Virus record (IMG/VR): IMGVR_UViG_3300044591_002231
Location: 1-37,167 of that record
DNA: 37,167 nt
From: a virus
Strand: one strand, 5' to 3'
Part shown: positions 6,577-20,330 of the stretch, one piece after another
Layout: every line of letters starts with the position of its first letter
Numbering within the stretch: the first letter of the stretch is position 1
Position numbers and translations under genes: made by a program
The notes under the pieces: generated by a model
Told to the model about the DNA's origin: nothing
Databases searched by the model: none
What the model saw: the letters and a program-made list of their open reading frames with translations, nothing else

Positions 6577-7347
6577 ATGGCACAAAGAGATTCGAAGGGG
6601 CAACCAGACATAGGGCCACTTTATGTAAAGATGACCACCGAGAGATCAGATGGTGCGGTCACACTTGAGGGTGCCAGAAATATTCTTGGTGCATTATCAT
6701 TAACAAGTCAATTTAAAGTTGCATTGCACTTGACAAATACAACGTCAGATGATGATAGGTTGATGCAATGGCTGACAAATTCTGGATTGACTAATGATGC
6801 AGTTAAAAATGCTTATTATGACTTTTATTGTTCAGAAGCAGTAATTCCAGGGGCAACATTCGAAGTTGCTGAAGAGGCAGGAAGTCGTCAGGGAATAATC
6901 GAAAGGATACCAACGAGGAGAATCTATACTCCAGTAACTTTAACTTTTTATGTCGATAATGATTATAGACTTATTCGTTTATTTGAAGAATGGATGAATT
7001 TCATCAACCCACTTTATGGTGGTACTGGTTCATATCCAGTATCTAAAATTGGATTTGGTGATGCTAAAAATAGAAATGATTTTTTTAGAATGAGATATCC
7101 AAATGAGTACAAAAGAATTATTAGTATAGTTAAATTTGAAAGAAATTTTAAGGAAAGACCAGAATTAAGTGGTGGGAAACTGGGAAATGTTCCAACCATT
7201 ACATATAGACTAATTGATGCATTTCCAACAAACATAACTGCACTTCCAGTTTCATATGAGGGAAGCACCATAACTAAAACAACTGTAGAATTTAGTTATT
7301 CTAGGTATGTTTATGAGAAAAATGATGGTACTGGTAATACTCGATAA
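6577..7347 (+). CDS. 54: gp54-like tail tube initiator (tube-fold protein)
   Basis: A 256-residue protein with features of the T4 tube/initiator fold: a long beta-rich domain including YTPVTLTFYVDNDYRLIRLF and EEWMNFINPLYGG, then RYPNEYKRIISIVKFER and a C-terminal strand pair with ITYRLIDAFPTNITALPVSY. The DNDYRLIRLFEEWMNFI pattern and the DAFPTNI...Y ending are shared by gp19 and gp54 proteins. T4 gp54 (320 aa) binds the gp48 cap and starts polymerisation of the tube. The position, opposite gp48 and before the hub genes, favours gp54 over the main tube protein gp19, but a gp19-like tube protein remains possible. Confidence 0.65.
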   Translation: MAQRDSKGQPDIGPLYVKMTTERSDGAVTLEGARNILGALSLTSQFKVALHLTNTTSDDDRLMQWLTNSGLTNDAVKNAYYDFYCSEAVIPGATFEVAEEAGSRQGIIERIPTRRIYTPVTLTFYVDNDYRLIRLFEEWMNFINPLYGGTGSYPVSKIGFGDAKNRNDFFRMRYPNEYKRIISIVKFERNFKERPELSGGKLGNVPTITYRLIDAFPTNITALPVSYEGSTITKTTVEFSYSRYVYEKNDGTGNTR

Positions 7348-7378: not shown

Positions 7379-8110
7379 ATGCCTTTACCAAAGATTTCTA
7401 CACCAACATATGAGTTGGAGTTGCCTTCAAACGGAAAAACTATAAAATATAGACCATTTTTAGTAAAAGAAGAAAAGATTTTAATTATTGCATTAGAATC
7501 ACAAGATACTAAACAAATTACTACTGCAATAAAACAAGTATTAAAGGAGTGTATTATTACCAAAGGGGTGAAGGTAGAAGAACTGCCCACTTTTGACATT
7601 GAATATGTATTCTTAAATGTAAGAGGAAAGTCTGTAGGGGAAAATATTGATTTAATTGTAACTTGTTACGATGATGATTCCAATACACAAGTTCCAGTAA
7701 CAGTCTATATTGACGAAATTAAGGTGAAAAAAGACCCAGAACATTCATCTGATATCAAATTAGATAATAATTTAATAATGAGAATGAAATATCCTTCATT
7801 GGATCAATTTATCAAAAATAATTTTGATTTTAGTGATGCTCAAAGTGAAAGTAATATTGAAAAGTCCTTTGATATTATTGCATCATGTATTGATATGGTT
7901 TATAGTGATGAAGAATCTTGGGCAGCAGCAGATTGTACAAAGAAAGAATTAATAGAATTTATTGAGCAGATGAATTCTAATCAGTTCAAAAAGATTGAAA
8001 AGTTCTTTGAAACAATGCCAAAACTTTCTCACACAATTCAGGTTAAAAATCCTAAGACTGGAGTAATGAATGAAGTGACGTTGGAGGGATTAACGAGTTT
8101 TTTCGGTTGA
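7379..8110 (+). CDS. 26: gp26-like baseplate hub / tail chaperone-type protein
   Basis: A 243-residue protein (T4 gp26 is 208 aa). The N-terminal MPLPKISTPTYELELPS and TIKYRPFLVKEEKILIIALES are the hallmark of the T4 baseplate protein family that includes gp26 and gp51. It continues with a central beta part with Asp-rich loops, KYPSLDQFIKNNFD, and a C-terminal helix-strand end (FKKIEKFFETMPKLSHTIQV). It precedes the two gp29-position proteins, as hub and tape-measure chaperone genes often do. Its last codons AGT TTT TTC GGT TGA contain a -1 slippery heptamer, and the next frame is open in exactly the -1 register, so a longer 305-residue form may be made. Confidence 0.8.
   Translation: MPLPKISTPTYELELPSNGKTIKYRPFLVKEEKILIIALESQDTKQITTAIKQVLKECIITKGVKVEELPTFDIEYVFLNVRGKSVGENIDLIVTCYDDDSNTQVPVTVYIDEIKVKKDPEHSSDIKLDNNLIMRMKYPSLDQFIKNNFDFSDAQSESNIEKSFDIIASCIDMVYSDEESWAAADCTKKELIEFIEQMNSNQFKKIEKFFETMPKLSHTIQVKNPKTGVMNEVTLEGLTSFFG
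8083..8104 (+). other. candidate programmed -1 frameshift site
   Basis: The heptamer T TTT TTC (8098-8104) is in the zero frame of the gp26-like gene, one codon before the last sense codon. A Shine-Dalgarno-like GGAGGG (8083-8088) lies 9 bases upstream, close to the arrangement that stimulates the E. coli dnaX frameshift. A -1 slip reads on as CGG TTG ATT ATG, entering the following open frame without a stop. A weak 8-bp hairpin (8129-8136 with 8154-8161) is 24 bases downstream, farther than usual. Codons and spacing are seen; the frameshift itself is inferred. Confidence 0.55.
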
Positions 8111-8295
8111 TTATGTCCCATATGGATCTTGAGGCATATTTCAAAATCAATTTTGCCTTAATGCAGTTCCATAAATACTCTTTGACTGAGATTGAAAATA
8201 TGATGCCTTGGGAAAGGGACATTTACGTTGGATTATTGCAGCAGCATATTGAAGAAGAAAAACTGAAGCAAAAACAGCAAGCACATGGCAATTAA
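8104..8295 (+). CDS. frameshift extension of gp26-like protein or separate small protein
   Basis: This open frame is in the -1 register of the gp26-like gene. Read as an extension, it adds 63 residues after the two Phe codons of the slippery site, giving a protein of about 305 residues. Read separately, it could start at TTG 8107, ATG 8113 or ATG 8122, none with a well-placed Shine-Dalgarno. The sequence (AYFKINFALMQFHKYSLTEI, then MMPWERDIYVGLLQQHIEEE) resembles the short downstream partner in tail assembly chaperone pairs, where an MPWWER-type motif precedes a charged helix. By analogy with lambda gpG/gpGT it may help the tape-measure protein in tail assembly. It overlaps the next gene by 11 bases. 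Confidence 0.6.
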   Translation, partial: RLIMSHMDLEAYFKINFALMQFHKYSLTEIENMMPWERDIYVGLLQQHIEEEKLKQKQQAHGN

Positions 8296-10168
8296 ATCTG
8301 CCCTTAGACCAGAATCAATAGTAAGAAGAAATCCAATAAATTCACAATCTGCTCAGAATTTTATTTCTGGTGGAGCACCTTTAGGGTCTTCTGTTGTTTC
8401 TTCTGCTGCAAATAAAATTGTAGGATTCCAACGTGCTGCAGTAAAACCAGTAACTCCAGACATTAATTCTATTGTAAGTACTATTTCTTCCAATATTTTA
8501 AATCAGGTTGATAATAGTATTAGAAATGCTACAAATATAACAAATAGGCAAGTAGACGGAAAATTACAACAAGTAGCATCAAATACAATAAATCAAATAC
8601 AACAAATTAGGCAGCAGCAAAATTCTCAAGTAACTCAACTACAAACTGTTGTACAAAATATAAGACAACAGACTGCCAATTTCACTAAACAACTTTCCGA
8701 CAATTATCAAAAAAGACTTAGAGATGTTGATGCAGCAAAACCCGTTGGTATTTTAGATAAATTTTTAGATGCATATAAGAATGCCCTTGGATTTGTAAAT
8801 TTCTTTGGAAGTGGAAAAAACATAAAACAGTTAAGAGAAAGTCTCGCAACACTTAAGACTTCTTTTACTGAAAGTTTTGAAATTGCAAAATTAATTAGGC
8901 AAACCATTCTCAAAATAGTAAATCAACTATCAAATTTACCACAAGCATCTCCTGGAGGAAGTCCAGGATTAAATTTGGATATTGATGTTCCAGGTGGACC
9001 ATTAAGAAGAACTACCCCAAGAAGTGCTAGGATAGGAAGAAGGGGGGCGGGTCTTTTGGGATTAGGTCTTGGTGCAGTTGGTGGTGGGATGGCAGTTAAT
9101 GCTCTTGCAGATAGTGATAGATTGCAGAGTATCCCACAAATTTCAAATATACCGACAGGATTAGTTGATACATTTGCATTTATTGTAAACAAATTTGCAA
9201 ATGCTGTTGAAGAAATGATAAAAGGTTCATCAGCAAAGATAGGTCAAGGACCATCAACTTCTTCTCCTGGAGGTGGAGCACCTTCTCCAGCACCTTCATC
9301 TAGTCCTGCTTCTTCCCCTGGAGGGATGCCTTCTGGTCCATCTTCTTATTCTCCAGGAACAATTCCCAAAGAAGTTTCTAAAGATACCTCTTTCACAAAA
9401 GGAGTTACTGATATTTCTAAAAAATATAATATTCCAGAAGATTATCTTTATGCAGTCATGGGATTTGAAACTGGAGGAACATTTAGTCCTTCAATAAAGA
9501 ACAAAGCTGGCAGTGGTGCTACTGGATTGATTCAATTTATGCCAGATACTGCAAAGGGATTGGGAACTTCCACTGATGCTTTGTCAAAAATGACAAGAAC
9601 AGAGCAACTTAAATACGTTGACAAATATTTTGAAGGAACTTTAAATAAAGGTGGATCTTTATCCGATGTTTATATGTCTGTTCTTTTTCCTGCTGCTGTA
9701 GGAAAACCTGACAATTTCGTTCTTTTTGGCAAAGGTGCCATGAGTGGTTATACTGGACGTGCTTATACTCAGAATGCAGGTCTCGATTTAAATAAGGATG
9801 GAAGTGTAACAAAAGAAGAAGCATCGAAAAAAGTTAAAGAATATTTACCAAAAACTTCTCAAGTAAAAGGAGGAATGGGTGGACTTGGTGTAGACCCATC
9901 AATGTTTGCCCCAGAAGAGAGGGCAAAATTAGCAATGAGCATATCTCAACCACCACCTTCACAAGCAAAACCATCAGTTGTAACATTGCCTGGGATTACT
10001 GGAGGACAACAACAATCTTCTGGTGGTGGGGGAGGTGGACAAGTTATAATTCCACCAACCAATCCTTTGGGTGATAGTGGTCCATCTATACCTATTTTAC
10101 CATCTTCGGACTCTGCTAATTTCTTAACAATGTATTCAAAAATCGTTTATAATATTGTTGACGGATAA
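8285..10168 (+). CDS. tail hub/tape-measure-type protein with lytic transglycosylase domain
   Basis: A 627-residue protein in the T4 gp29 position. Residues 60-220 are Gln/Asn-rich helical and coiled-coil-like (TINQIQQIRQQQNSQVTQLQ). Residues 255-280 form a Gly-rich hydrophobic segment (GAGLLGLGLGAVGGGMAVNA), followed by a Pro/Ser/Gly linker. Residues about 370-525 form an SLT-type lysozyme fold: candidate catalytic Glu395 in MGFETGG, the GATGLIQFMP motif at about 411-420, and later YVDKYF. A perfect EF-hand-like loop, DLNKDGSVTKEE, is at 501-512. A tail of motif GGMGGLGVDPSMFAPEE (from 529) recurs in the next gene. Probably a hub-associated muralytic protein that cuts peptidoglycan glycan chains during infection, possibly also a tape measure. 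Whether it or the next protein sets tail length is open. Confidence 0.75.
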   Translation: MAIKSALRPESIVRRNPINSQSAQNFISGGAPLGSSVVSSAANKIVGFQRAAVKPVTPDINSIVSTISSNILNQVDNSIRNATNITNRQVDGKLQQVASNTINQIQQIRQQQNSQVTQLQTVVQNIRQQTANFTKQLSDNYQKRLRDVDAAKPVGILDKFLDAYKNALGFVNFFGSGKNIKQLRESLATLKTSFTESFEIAKLIRQTILKIVNQLSNLPQASPGGSPGLNLDIDVPGGPLRRTTPRSARIGRRGAGLLGLGLGAVGGGMAVNALADSDRLQSIPQISNIPTGLVDTFAFIVNKFANAVEEMIKGSSAKIGQGPSTSSPGGGAPSPAPSSSPASSPGGMPSGPSSYSPGTIPKEVSKDTSFTKGVTDISKKYNIPEDYLYAVMGFETGGTFSPSIKNKAGSGATGLIQFMPDTAKGLGTSTDALSKMTRTEQLKYVDKYFEGTLNKGGSLSDVYMSVLFPAAVGKPDNFVLFGKGAMSGYTGRAYTQNAGLDLNKDGSVTKEEASKKVKEYLPKTSQVKGGMGGLGVDPSMFAPEERAKLAMSISQPPPSQAKPSVVTLPGITGGQQQSSGGGGGGQVIIPPTNPLGDSGPSIPILPSSDSANFLTMYSKIVYNIVDG

Positions 10169-12300
10169 TGGCAAAAGCAATTACATCTCCATTAGTATCT
10201 TCATTTAATAGTATTGCTTCGTATAACGGCAAGACTAAACGTGACTTGTCAAAAATGCAGTCAGAATATAAATCATTTTCTACTTTTTTGGTTAAAGAAA
10301 CCAAGTCTCTTCAAACCATAAAATTACCACCAAAAAGAAAAATAAAAGAACTAGCAAATTTAAATGTTGCTAATAATTTTGGGAATGTTGGTAATTTATT
10401 AAGGTCACTAGTTGGTGGTGCTTTAGATGTTGGTGGTTTTCTTGGAAATATGTTCCCTGGAAAAGGAAAACTTGGTGAGCCAGCAAAAACATCTTCAAAA
10501 CCTTCAAGGCAAGCAACCCCAATTCCAAGAGGACAAGGTTTAAGATTTACTGGGTTGAGATCAATTGGAATTGTAAACAGTATTTTTGCTGGACTTGATT
10601 TTGCAACTGGACTTGCTGAGGGGGAATCTATTGGCAAAGCAGCAGCAGGTACTGGAGGTGCTCTTGCTGGAAGTTTACTTGGTGGTGCTATAGGGCAAAC
10701 ATTGATACCAATTCCTGGAGTTGGATTTGTTATTGGGAGTATGGCAGGTAATTTTGTTGGTGGGTTTGCTGCAGATAGAGCATATGAGGGAGTTACTGGT
10801 GAAAAATCATTAGAACAAAAGCAAAAAGAAAGACTCAAGGCACAAGAACAAAAACAAAAAGGATTGTCGGAAGGTTCTGGTGGATTTAAAAATGCACTAG
10901 ACAAATTTTCAAGTGTTGTGGATAAATTTAGTAATTTTGCAATGGGTTTTTCTGTATCTGGTGGAGAAATAGGACCAGGAACATATACCGATAATATTTC
11001 TGCGGACCCAAATAATATGGGACCTGGAGTAAACGACCAAGGTGTTACAGATGCAAATTATCCAGGATTTGATAATGTTGAAAGAGTTGCTCCATTTGTT
11101 ACTGGGCATGTAAGCACTTATGGTGGAGCACAATTTGGAGCAGCAAGATCACATGGGTCTCATGCTGGACAAGATATTGCAGATCAAAAAGCAGGAGATC
11201 CTGTTTTAGCAGCAATGTCAGGAACTGTAGTTGAAGTTGGACGTGGATATGCTTGGCAAAAAGGAGGAGGAAGTAGTCAAACAATTGGCATCAAACATAA
11301 AGATGGAAGTATGACCAGATATGTTCATGTTTTATCAAATGTTTCTACAGGGACAGAAGTTAAAACAGGACAAAAAATAGGCACTATTTCACCAGCAGAT
11401 AAGGCAAGTTCTCCAGATTTTCCTCATTTGCATTTTGAACTTTATAATACTTCAGGAAAATTAATAGACCCAAGACCATTTTTAAGAACCGCACCAAAAA
11501 CTCCAGCAGTTGCACCAATAAAAACTGGAACGCAAGCAGCGACAGCACCTGGAAGTTCTATGAATGGAAAATTCACTTCAAATGATATTGGTGCAGCACC
11601 AATGCTTACTATAGGAGATAGCATAGCAAAGGGGTCAAAGGATTCTTCTGGTTCTGCAGGAACTGCTACAGTCGGAGCAAGTCCAAAAGATGTTATGGGA
11701 ATGCTTCAGAATCAAGATTTAAAAGGTAAACTTATTAGATTATCTTCTGGTATTTCCAATGATACTTCAGATTTAGCAACAGTTCGTCAACAATTACAAT
11801 ATGCTCAGAAAATGGGAGCAAAGGGAGTTCAATTGATGGGGACAAGTGTTGACAGAGGAGATTTGGCAGCAATGAATCCAAAACTACAAGCACTTGCAAA
11901 TGAATTTCCTGGTTTTGTTCAGTTTGGTGGGGGATTTAATGCAAAAGATAAAGTTCATCCAGATTATACCAAATACAATAATAAGCTTCAAAATTTACTC
12001 AAGTCTAATGTTGGTGGAATGGGTGGAATGGGTGTAGACCCATCTATGTTTGCTCCAGAGGAATTATCAAAATTGGGAAAAAATATTTCAGATTATCCAG
12101 AATATAATTCTCCAGGTTCATCTATAGTTTTAATTCCAATAGAAGGACAACAATCTCAATCAAGTTCTAGTCCACCTTCTGTTATAACTGCTCCTGGTGG
12201 TAATAGTAATTCCACACCCACTGTAATGGGAACACCACCATCTCAAGTGGTAAATAGTTTAATGAAGTCTCTTCTTTTAACCAATCTTTCGCAAACATAA
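10168..12300 (+). CDS. tail hub protein with M23 peptidase and SGNH hydrolase domains
   Basis: A 710-residue protein whose start overlaps the previous stop (TAATG). Residues 100-210 are Gly/Ala-rich and hydrophobic (GTGGALAGSLLGGAIGQTLI), a likely membrane-active region, followed by a Lys/Gln helix. Residues about 310-445 are an M23 metalloendopeptidase with H332-x3-D336 (HAGQD) and the HLHFE motif (His420, His422), zinc ligands for cutting peptide cross-links. Residues about 475-610 look like an SGNH hydrolase: GDSIAKG with Ser485, an SGISND block (Asn531), and D594-x2-H597 in DKVHPDY. The C-terminus carries GGMGGMGVDPSMFAPEE (from 616), as in the previous protein. A dual wall-acting tail protein is inferred; the SGNH part may remove acetyl groups from peptidoglycan or surface sugars. 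Confidence 0.8.
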   Translation: MAKAITSPLVSSFNSIASYNGKTKRDLSKMQSEYKSFSTFLVKETKSLQTIKLPPKRKIKELANLNVANNFGNVGNLLRSLVGGALDVGGFLGNMFPGKGKLGEPAKTSSKPSRQATPIPRGQGLRFTGLRSIGIVNSIFAGLDFATGLAEGESIGKAAAGTGGALAGSLLGGAIGQTLIPIPGVGFVIGSMAGNFVGGFAADRAYEGVTGEKSLEQKQKERLKAQEQKQKGLSEGSGGFKNALDKFSSVVDKFSNFAMGFSVSGGEIGPGTYTDNISADPNNMGPGVNDQGVTDANYPGFDNVERVAPFVTGHVSTYGGAQFGAARSHGSHAGQDIADQKAGDPVLAAMSGTVVEVGRGYAWQKGGGSSQTIGIKHKDGSMTRYVHVLSNVSTGTEVKTGQKIGTISPADKASSPDFPHLHFELYNTSGKLIDPRPFLRTAPKTPAVAPIKTGTQAATAPGSSMNGKFTSNDIGAAPMLTIGDSIAKGSKDSSGSAGTATVGASPKDVMGMLQNQDLKGKLIRLSSGISNDTSDLATVRQQLQYAQKMGAKGVQLMGTSVDRGDLAAMNPKLQALANEFPGFVQFGGGFNAKDKVHPDYTKYNNKLQNLLKSNVGGMGGMGVDPSMFAPEELSKLGKNISDYPEYNSPGSSIVLIPIEGQQSQSSSSPPSVITAPGGNSNSTPTVMGTPPSQVVNSLMKSLLLTNLSQT

Positions 12301-18617: not shown

Positions 18618-18644
18618 CTAAAAACCGTGTTAGTTACCTTTACA

Positions 18645-20330
18645 ATGTCAGAGTCCAGAGAAATAATTGCAGAGTTGAAGCAAGAACTAGAACTCAAAAT
18701 CAAACAAAGAGAAGGAATTCTCGATAGATTATCATTGGCTGACATTGAGATTGATAAAATGGATCAGTTGATAGAAGGTATTGATGCAGATGCAATTGGA
18801 ACAACAAATATAATAAATCAGTCCATAACTCCAGTAAAAACTGCATATGATTCTAGAATAACTTCTGGTTGTAGAACGGATTTAATTTGGAAAAAAACAG
18901 ACTCATATACACAATGGGTTACTTCTGGTTCTGGTGATGGAGCATCATTATCACAAGTTACTTTCACCGTTTATGAGGTTCAAAAAAATAGTGCTGTTTA
19001 CGACTATGAACCTTATCAAGGTTTAAAATATTACCAAAAACCAACTAATAGAGATTATGGTTCAAATTTAATCACAGAATTTGATGGATATCTTTCTTTA
19101 GGGTCAACAGTAGTTGGAGTAAATAGTGCAACTTCAGTTCCACAAGAGATAAAGATTGGAGATACAATATCAGACAATCTTGATAATCCAGTCGCATTTA
19201 CCACTGGAGATTTGCCAGAAGTTGTTGGGTTTGGGTCTACTACAGTTGTAGGAATCATTACCACTTTAGTTGGTGGCATATCCACTGGGTCTTATACTTT
19301 TGCTAATTTTGGTGCTGGTAGCATAACTGGGTTAACCACTGGAATGATTCTTCTTGAGCCAGAAGTTTCTGGAATGTCTACAAGTTATGTGGGAGTCTTG
19401 ACCACAAATGGTTATACTTCAATCGTTGGTTTTGGTAGTACTACGCAAACTATAGAATATTATGACGAGGTTGGAATAGTCTCGACTTCAACTTTACTCG
19501 TTCCCTCATTGATTTTAGATAAACCAGCAACTAATTATTTGGAAGAAGGTATTTTTAGAGTAGGAATTCTTACAACAATACCTGCTTTGTTTATATCAAC
19601 AACTACTTTGGCATCTTTTGCTAGTACAGCAATATATGTGATTAGGAATACTCCAAATATTGATGAAGACTTTAATTACGAGAAAAATCCAAATAGTCCC
19701 GTAAAAATAGGAATCATTGATAAATCAACAGTTGGTAAAGGACATAGTGTATTTTATGATACTTCTGGTGATCCAAATAGAACAGAATCATGGAAACCAG
19801 AAAAAGCAAGAGATGAAATAAAATCTAAGGGAGATGTAATAGTTAAAGAAATAAAAGAACCAAAAGTTGGAGCAGGTAGAGCAGATTATTATATTGGAAC
19901 AAAGCAATGGCCGACAATAACAACGTGTACCAGTAGTGGAGGTGAAATGCCAATTATAACTTGTACAACTACTTACGCTCCACTTGGAACAAAAGTTACA
20001 ATTGGTGGAACAGCAACCTCTGTTTCGATTGGTTATACTGGAATGGCACAAGGAGGACCAGATCCAAATGGAGCAACATGCTCCCAGTATGATTCTGCAA
20101 TTACAAGTGCCACAAATAATATGAATTCTGTAATATCTGCAAATCAACCGACTGCAGAGAAATTAATTTCAATGACAAAGAGATTAAGAGAAAGAAGAGA
20201 CGAAAGAGAACTCTATGCTTGGTCTTTATTACAATCTGCCGCAAGGACGAGAGAAGAGATTGATAAACTGAAAAAACAAATTCAAGAAATGGAAAATTTT
20301 GATTTTTCTAAGTATGAAAAGAAAAAATAA
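18645..20330 (+). CDS. large virion structural protein with coiled-coil ends
   Basis: A 561-residue protein from the ATG at 18645 (MSESREIIAEL); a GTG at 18627 would add 6 residues but lies closer to the promoter. The N-terminus is a coiled coil (AELKQELELKIKQREGILDR) and the C-terminus another (RLRERRDERELYAWSLLQSA, ending KLKKQIQEMENFDFSKYEKKK). Between them is a Gly/Thr/Ser-rich beta region with repeated GFGSTT and VVGIITTL motifs, resembling fibre shafts. Two long helices closing a beta-rich body suggest a trimeric or whisker-like tail component. It follows a late promoter and leads the fibre genes. I do not recognise a named T4 counterpart. Confidence 0.65.
   Translation: MSESREIIAELKQELELKIKQREGILDRLSLADIEIDKMDQLIEGIDADAIGTTNIINQSITPVKTAYDSRITSGCRTDLIWKKTDSYTQWVTSGSGDGASLSQVTFTVYEVQKNSAVYDYEPYQGLKYYQKPTNRDYGSNLITEFDGYLSLGSTVVGVNSATSVPQEIKIGDTISDNLDNPVAFTTGDLPEVVGFGSTTVVGIITTLVGGISTGSYTFANFGAGSITGLTTGMILLEPEVSGMSTSYVGVLTTNGYTSIVGFGSTTQTIEYYDEVGIVSTSTLLVPSLILDKPATNYLEEGIFRVGILTTIPALFISTTTLASFASTAIYVIRNTPNIDEDFNYEKNPNSPVKIGIIDKSTVGKGHSVFYDTSGDPNRTESWKPEKARDEIKSKGDVIVKEIKEPKVGAGRADYYIGTKQWPTITTCTSSGGEMPIITCTTTYAPLGTKVTIGGTATSVSIGYTGMAQGGPDPNGATCSQYDSAITSATNNMNSVISANQPTAEKLISMTKRLRERRDERELYAWSLLQSAARTREEIDKLKKQIQEMENFDFSKYEKKK

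Follow-up and report, generated by a model that had tools for sequence, protein, structure and literature searches.

Does the gp26-like gene of this virus yield only the protein that ends at its own stop codon, or do some ribosomes leave its frame shortly before that stop and append an overlapping −1 reading frame? The window, by which we mean the whole stretch of DNA analysed, comprises 37,167 nucleotides of the IMG/VR virus record IMGVR_UViG_3300044591_002231 and contains the following features:

6577–7347, plus strand: tail-tube-like protein, upstream neighbour (phrog_45, Pfam Phage_TTP_2)
7379–8110, plus strand: gp26 or TAC-N, the short form and frame 0 product of 243 aa (open reading frame)
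8083–8088, plus strand: Shine–Dalgarno (SD)-like GGAGGG, probable frameshift stimulator (SD-like core in 115/118 homologues)
8098–8104, plus strand: slippery heptamer T TTT TTC (kept in 133/133 cyanophage-type loci)
8104–8295, plus strand: −1 frame extension or TAC-C with its stop, 63 aa beyond the slip (RLIMSHMDLEAYF...) (phrog_634)
8108–8110, plus strand: frame-0 stop TGA, one codon past the heptamer (spacing in 131/133 loci)
8113–8115, plus strand: ATG codon in frame with the extension, unlikely to be a genuine start (ATG in 91/115 homologues)
8285–10168, plus strand: large tail protein with SLT domain, downstream neighbour, in the place of a tape measure gene (Pfam SLT, phrog_196)

The 3′ end of gp26 reads AGT TTT TTC GGT TGA in the window, and GGAGGG is separated from the heptamer by 9 nt. 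No stop interrupts the −1 frame across the slip site, the frame being open from 34 nt 5′ of the gp26 stop (as read at locus L002, whose gp26 is identical). A −1 slip leads to the reading CGG TTG ATT ATG... and, after 63 codons, to a stop that ends at 8295; the predicted long form therefore has 242 + 63 = 305 aa, with the peptide ..TSFFRLIMSHMDLEAYFK predicted across the fusion junction. The slippery heptamer, the upstream GGAGGG, the open −1 frame and the sizes of a short and a long form, all of which a preliminary description of the DNA had given, were thus confirmed in the sequence. The gp26 protein belongs to the Pfam family T4_baseplate, PF12322 (E 6e-72, 242 bits at a curated cut-off of 24.5), and matches the baseplate hub family phrog_150 (E 3.7e-80). 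The extension matches phrog_634, baseplate hub assembly catalyst (E 2.8e-29), and a Pfam scan of the extension alone gave no credible family.

The frameshift proposed in the preliminary description is supported by an alignment of the 3′ ends of cyanophage gp26 genes. The window protein and Syn19 gp26 served as queries to collect homologues from IMG/VR, and annotated phages were added, which yielded a cyanophage-type sample of 133 loci with a readable 3′ end and 118 distinct gp26 proteins; KVP40-type and Stenotrophomonas proteins as queries gained few further loci. T TTT TTC stands at the equivalent position, together with the −1 overlap, in 133/133 cyanophage-type homologues, which do not count as independent trials because the sequences share ancestry; other synonymous sites in them vary freely. 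The distance from TTC to the stop is one sense codon in all but two of these loci, and the identity of the frame-0 stop differs among them (TAA, TAG or TGA). Moreover, the constraint reaches individual bases: The codon preceding TTT ends in T in 118/118 distinct homologues, and elsewhere in gp26 a final T is found in 63% of the Ser codons, 30% of the Ala codons and 46% of the Gly codons. Only two of the 74 conserved-residue columns of gp26 have zero synonymous variation, and these are the two Phe codons of the heptamer, TTT in 116/116 genes followed by the A-site TTC in 116/116. The Phe background in gp26 is 933 TTT vs 359 TTC (TTC 28%) and the other Phe columns are variable, which argues that the nucleotides are held here beyond the residues alone. 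Away from this site, in-frame copies of the heptamer number just two among 26,964 codon positions of the 116 aligned gp26 genes; in the open reading frames listed for the window there are three in-frame copies in 10,577 codons, and only the gp26 copy lies at the end of a gene.

An SD-like core is found 5′ of the heptamer in 115/118 homologues, where it falls within a conserved Glu-Gly. At codon −6, 104 of 115 Glu codons are GAG (90%), compared with 27% GAG elsewhere in gp26, which indicates that the element is selected at the nucleotide level. With an assumed 16S tail sequence, the duplex of the window's GGAGGG with the anti-SD amounts to −9.8 kcal/mol, and the mean predicted energy of pairing to that tail is −8.0 kcal/mol at the site vs −1.8 in the remaining gene. 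The −1 frameshift of E. coli dnaX has an SD-like element upstream of its A AAA AAG heptamer, and the element described here occupies the same side of the heptamer at similar spacing. By analogy, it likely stimulates the slip. The two cases differ in that the genes are unrelated, that the heptamer here is T TTT TTC and that no conserved downstream stem-loop is present in 16 sequences. Folding of an alignment of 16 diverse loci gave no consensus pairs, and a downstream RNA structure as stimulator was set aside on this basis. The downstream hairpin noted in the preliminary description, and considered there too distant to count as support, had no conserved counterpart in that alignment; the slip is probably promoted by the SD-like element on the upstream side.

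The extension evolves as a protein: its median dN/dS in the −1 frame is 0.10 among moderately diverged pairs, and it is under purifying selection in that frame. How its translation begins is the point at which other readings part from a frameshift. The one that survives best adds to the frameshifted long form an internal initiation that would release a free C-terminal domain wherever the ATG is kept; it is compatible with the frameshift, and we regard it as unlikely. The ATG is indeed retained in most lineages, and the T4 record annotates an internal product gp26′, so internal starts in the gp26 family are not unheard of; however, an SD-like 4-mer at normal spacing, 5–15 nt 5′ of the first ATG, precedes only 4/103 first ATGs.

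Alternatively, the extension might be a separate small gene, the annotated gp51, translated from ATG 8113 by ribosomes that terminate at the gp26 stop and reinitiate, which we consider very improbable. This ATG lies 2 nt past the stop, its counterpart is ATG in most homologues, and GenBank annotates the extension of relatives as a gene of its own from the ATG (P-SSM2 PSSM2_015, Bellamy gp11). However, ATG, GTG and TTG are all absent within 30 nt of the junction in 12/118 homologues, which makes a separate gene unlikely; the cultured cyanophage Syn19 also lacks an ATG close to the junction. The Met is exchanged for Leu in 24/115 homologues, with the codons CTC, CTT and CTA among those used, not all of which can serve as starts, and the residues preceding the ATG counterpart retain their character among homologues. 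The GGAGGG lies 24 nt 5′ of the ATG, too far for a start but suited to the slip site; the T4 gp51 is an in-frame fusion to a gp26-like domain; and the invariant slippery heptamer would be left without explanation. The preliminary description had named two observations that would speak against a frameshift, homologues whose two frames lie apart and a strong, conserved start site of the second one; neither was encountered: the overlap is universal among these homologues, and the dozen start-less ones have nothing from which a second gene could begin near the junction. The separate 'gp51' of cyanophages is thus very probably the end of the fusion protein. The least probable reading, transcriptional slippage rather than the ribosome making the join, can point to the T6 run within the shift site, but such slippage would favour a longer T run than these six, which is short for it, the seventh base is C in 133/133 loci, and an SD-like element that is under selection and keeps a fixed distance implicates the ribosome.

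We compared the frameshift product with the two related hub factors of T4. T4 gp51 scores 177.9 bits against PF12322 (cut-off 24.5), and its residues 15–246 align with a profile of the predicted fusions across the junction, where T4 gp26 stops. As the E-value of the profile comparison comes from a two-sequence search only, the Pfam match is the stronger evidence for gp51. Against the −1 ORF of P-SSM2, gp51 gave E 0.0036, and the extension is homologous to the C-terminus of T4 gp51. Both T4 proteins are PF12322 members, and gp51 corresponds end to end to the frameshift product. T4 carries a pair of genes that lack a slip site, and the frameshift phages a single gene with one. The link to T4 gp26 and gp51 drawn in the preliminary description gains support in the form of a full-length homologue of the long form and a protein that ends at the junction. 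A single PF12322 gene is present in 9/9 frameshift genomes tested and two (gp26 and gp51) in 7/7 T4-type genomes. In a tree, frameshift proteins, gp26 and gp51 form three groups, of which gp51 has full support and the other two moderate support (86/89 and 84/83), with long branches and a root that is not determined. These observations fit a duplication in a Straboviridae lineage that may have replaced the frameshift. In RB43 (locus L176, 1495–2788), the gp51-like and gp26-like genes are in tandem and overlap on one strand, and the T4 pair is divergent; the RB43 pair looks like a less rearranged duplication.

The heptamer and the overlap also occur in Aeromonas PX29, phages of the Vibrio PVA8/KVP40 type, Stenotrophomonas BUCT608, Acidovorax ACP17, Agrobacterium OLIVR6 and Synechococcus MA01. 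At the OLIVR6 locus (L089, 2150–2351), a member of the frameshift type, TTC is followed by two sense codons before the stop, and the annotation makes the extension a gene of its own, a baseplate hub assembly catalyst whose start lies inside the full −1 extension. In the Ackermannviridae (GG32, phiMAM1 and 15 further loci) and in Vibrio D492, the overlap persists together with a related extension, and the junctions read RATTTTC, GGTTTTC or ACTTTTC, not T TTT TTC. These non-canonical junctions are found at L090 (GG32) 2300–2320, L151–L165, L092 and L088. In GG32 the first possible start lies 36 nt into the extension, which carries no annotated gene.

The neighbourhood resembles in part that of a chaperone gene: The upstream tail-tube-like protein matches the tail tube family phrog_45 (E 4.5e-37) and Pfam Phage_TTP_2 (E 7e-15), and the downstream protein of 627 aa at 8285–10168 matches Pfam SLT (E 1.3e-6) and the baseplate hub family phrog_196 (E 6.5e-40). 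With its place after a tail-tube-like gene and before a large SLT tail protein, gp26 would occupy the usual position of a chaperone gene, between tail tube and tape measure. The downstream protein gave no match to the tape-measure PHROG of T4 gp29, which falls in another PHROG. The products of 8285–10168 and 10168–12300 are consecutive large tail proteins with peptidoglycan-cutting domains (SLT and peptidase M23). Further along, amid tail genes, a 567-aa ORF with a GTG start (18627–20330) has no PHROG match at E 1e-4. An AlphaFold2 model of gp26 reached a pLDDT of 85.8, and its first match among 350,542 PDB chains was the HK97 chaperone 2ob9, at a non-significant level (E 1.2–2.0); a gp51 model gave no meaningful match in the PDB, and the HK97 chaperone was not found. 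For T4, both gp26 and gp51 have been counted among the hub assembly chaperones, and the final particle is without gp51 (PMC3004832). Most likely, gp26 is the short and gp51 the long form of a tail assembly chaperone.

Among the closest known arrangements is that of phage lambda, and the analogy with lambda G/GT proposed in the preliminary description is supported. Xu, Hendrix and Duda reportedly described the general frameshift of tail assembly chaperone (TAC) genes, with lambda gpG/gpGT, in 2004. As in gpG/gpGT, a short protein is accompanied by a −1 extended form, the two frames overlap at the 3′ end, genes for a tail tube and a large tail protein lie nearby, and the extension is predicted to be helical in its T4 gp51 counterpart. 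The lambda slip site is G GGA AAG; the locus described here differs from it in slipping on T TTT TTC and in having an SD-like stimulator. Pfam and PHROGs gave no family match to lambda-type TACs.

The preliminary description knew of no such case in T4-like phages, a claim that fails on prior work: Vladimirov, Gautam and Davidson are said to have identified the tail assembly chaperone genes of T4-like phages (Virology, 2022). Papers that cite them credit that group with the T4-like finding: one with poly-T slippery sites in some T4-like TAC-N genes (PMC12846349), and the PRFect paper with some T4-like phages in which a short gene is paired with a fused long one (PMC10885494). The latter summarises Vladimirov et al. 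and leaves the T4 baseplate and cyanophages unmentioned. Judging by these accounts, the TAC-N/TAC-NC genes of Vladimirov et al. are the same kind of gene as ours. The literature searched contained no direct description of a frameshift in cyanophage gp26 and no ribosome-profiling paper on cyanophages, and we found no protein or ribosome-profiling evidence for the frameshift product. As the general idea is published, the gain lies mainly in breadth and mechanism: what appears to be additional is the scale of conservation, the selected SD-like stimulator and the non-canonical junction of the Ackermannviridae.

Taking together what can be read from the genomes, namely the site and its conservation, the coding extension, the homology to gp51 and the one-versus-two gene copies, we hold with high confidence that the locus is a tail (baseplate hub) assembly chaperone gene of a marine T4-like cyanophage and that it gives two proteins from one mRNA by a −1 frameshift. 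The slip itself, its efficiency, the role of the SD-like element and the chaperone function are inferred: The majority of ribosomes would terminate at 8108–8110 and release the 243-aa gp26 (TAC-N), and a minority would be held by pairing of the 16S rRNA with GGAGGG. The held ribosomes would shift one base back on T TTT TTC, with both Phe tRNAs re-pairing on TTT TTT, and would read 63 more codons to give the 305-aa long form (TAC-NC). Short and long forms may then jointly chaperone the tail tape measure or hub without entering the virion, like lambda G/GT. In T4 and its near relatives two genes would take over these roles, with gp26 as the short form and gp51 as the in-frame long form. More tentatively, and at somewhat less than even chances, the chaperone ratio in cyanophages (Kyanoviridae) may be set by the pairing of SD and anti-SD alone, without RNA structure, and the related Ackermannviridae may fuse their frames at RATTTTC or GGTTTTC.

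For annotation, the cyanophage 'gp51' would be corrected to the end of a fusion protein, and an extension missed altogether in the Ackermannviridae records that we looked at would be added. If the more tentative proposals are true, RATTTTC/GGTTTTC would be a new shift motif, and T4 gp26 and gp51 would represent an ancestral frameshift that became fixed as a duplication. With a frameshift in most T4-like lineages sampled and two genes in T4, these phages would offer a natural comparison of frameshift and gene duplication as ways to a two-protein ratio.
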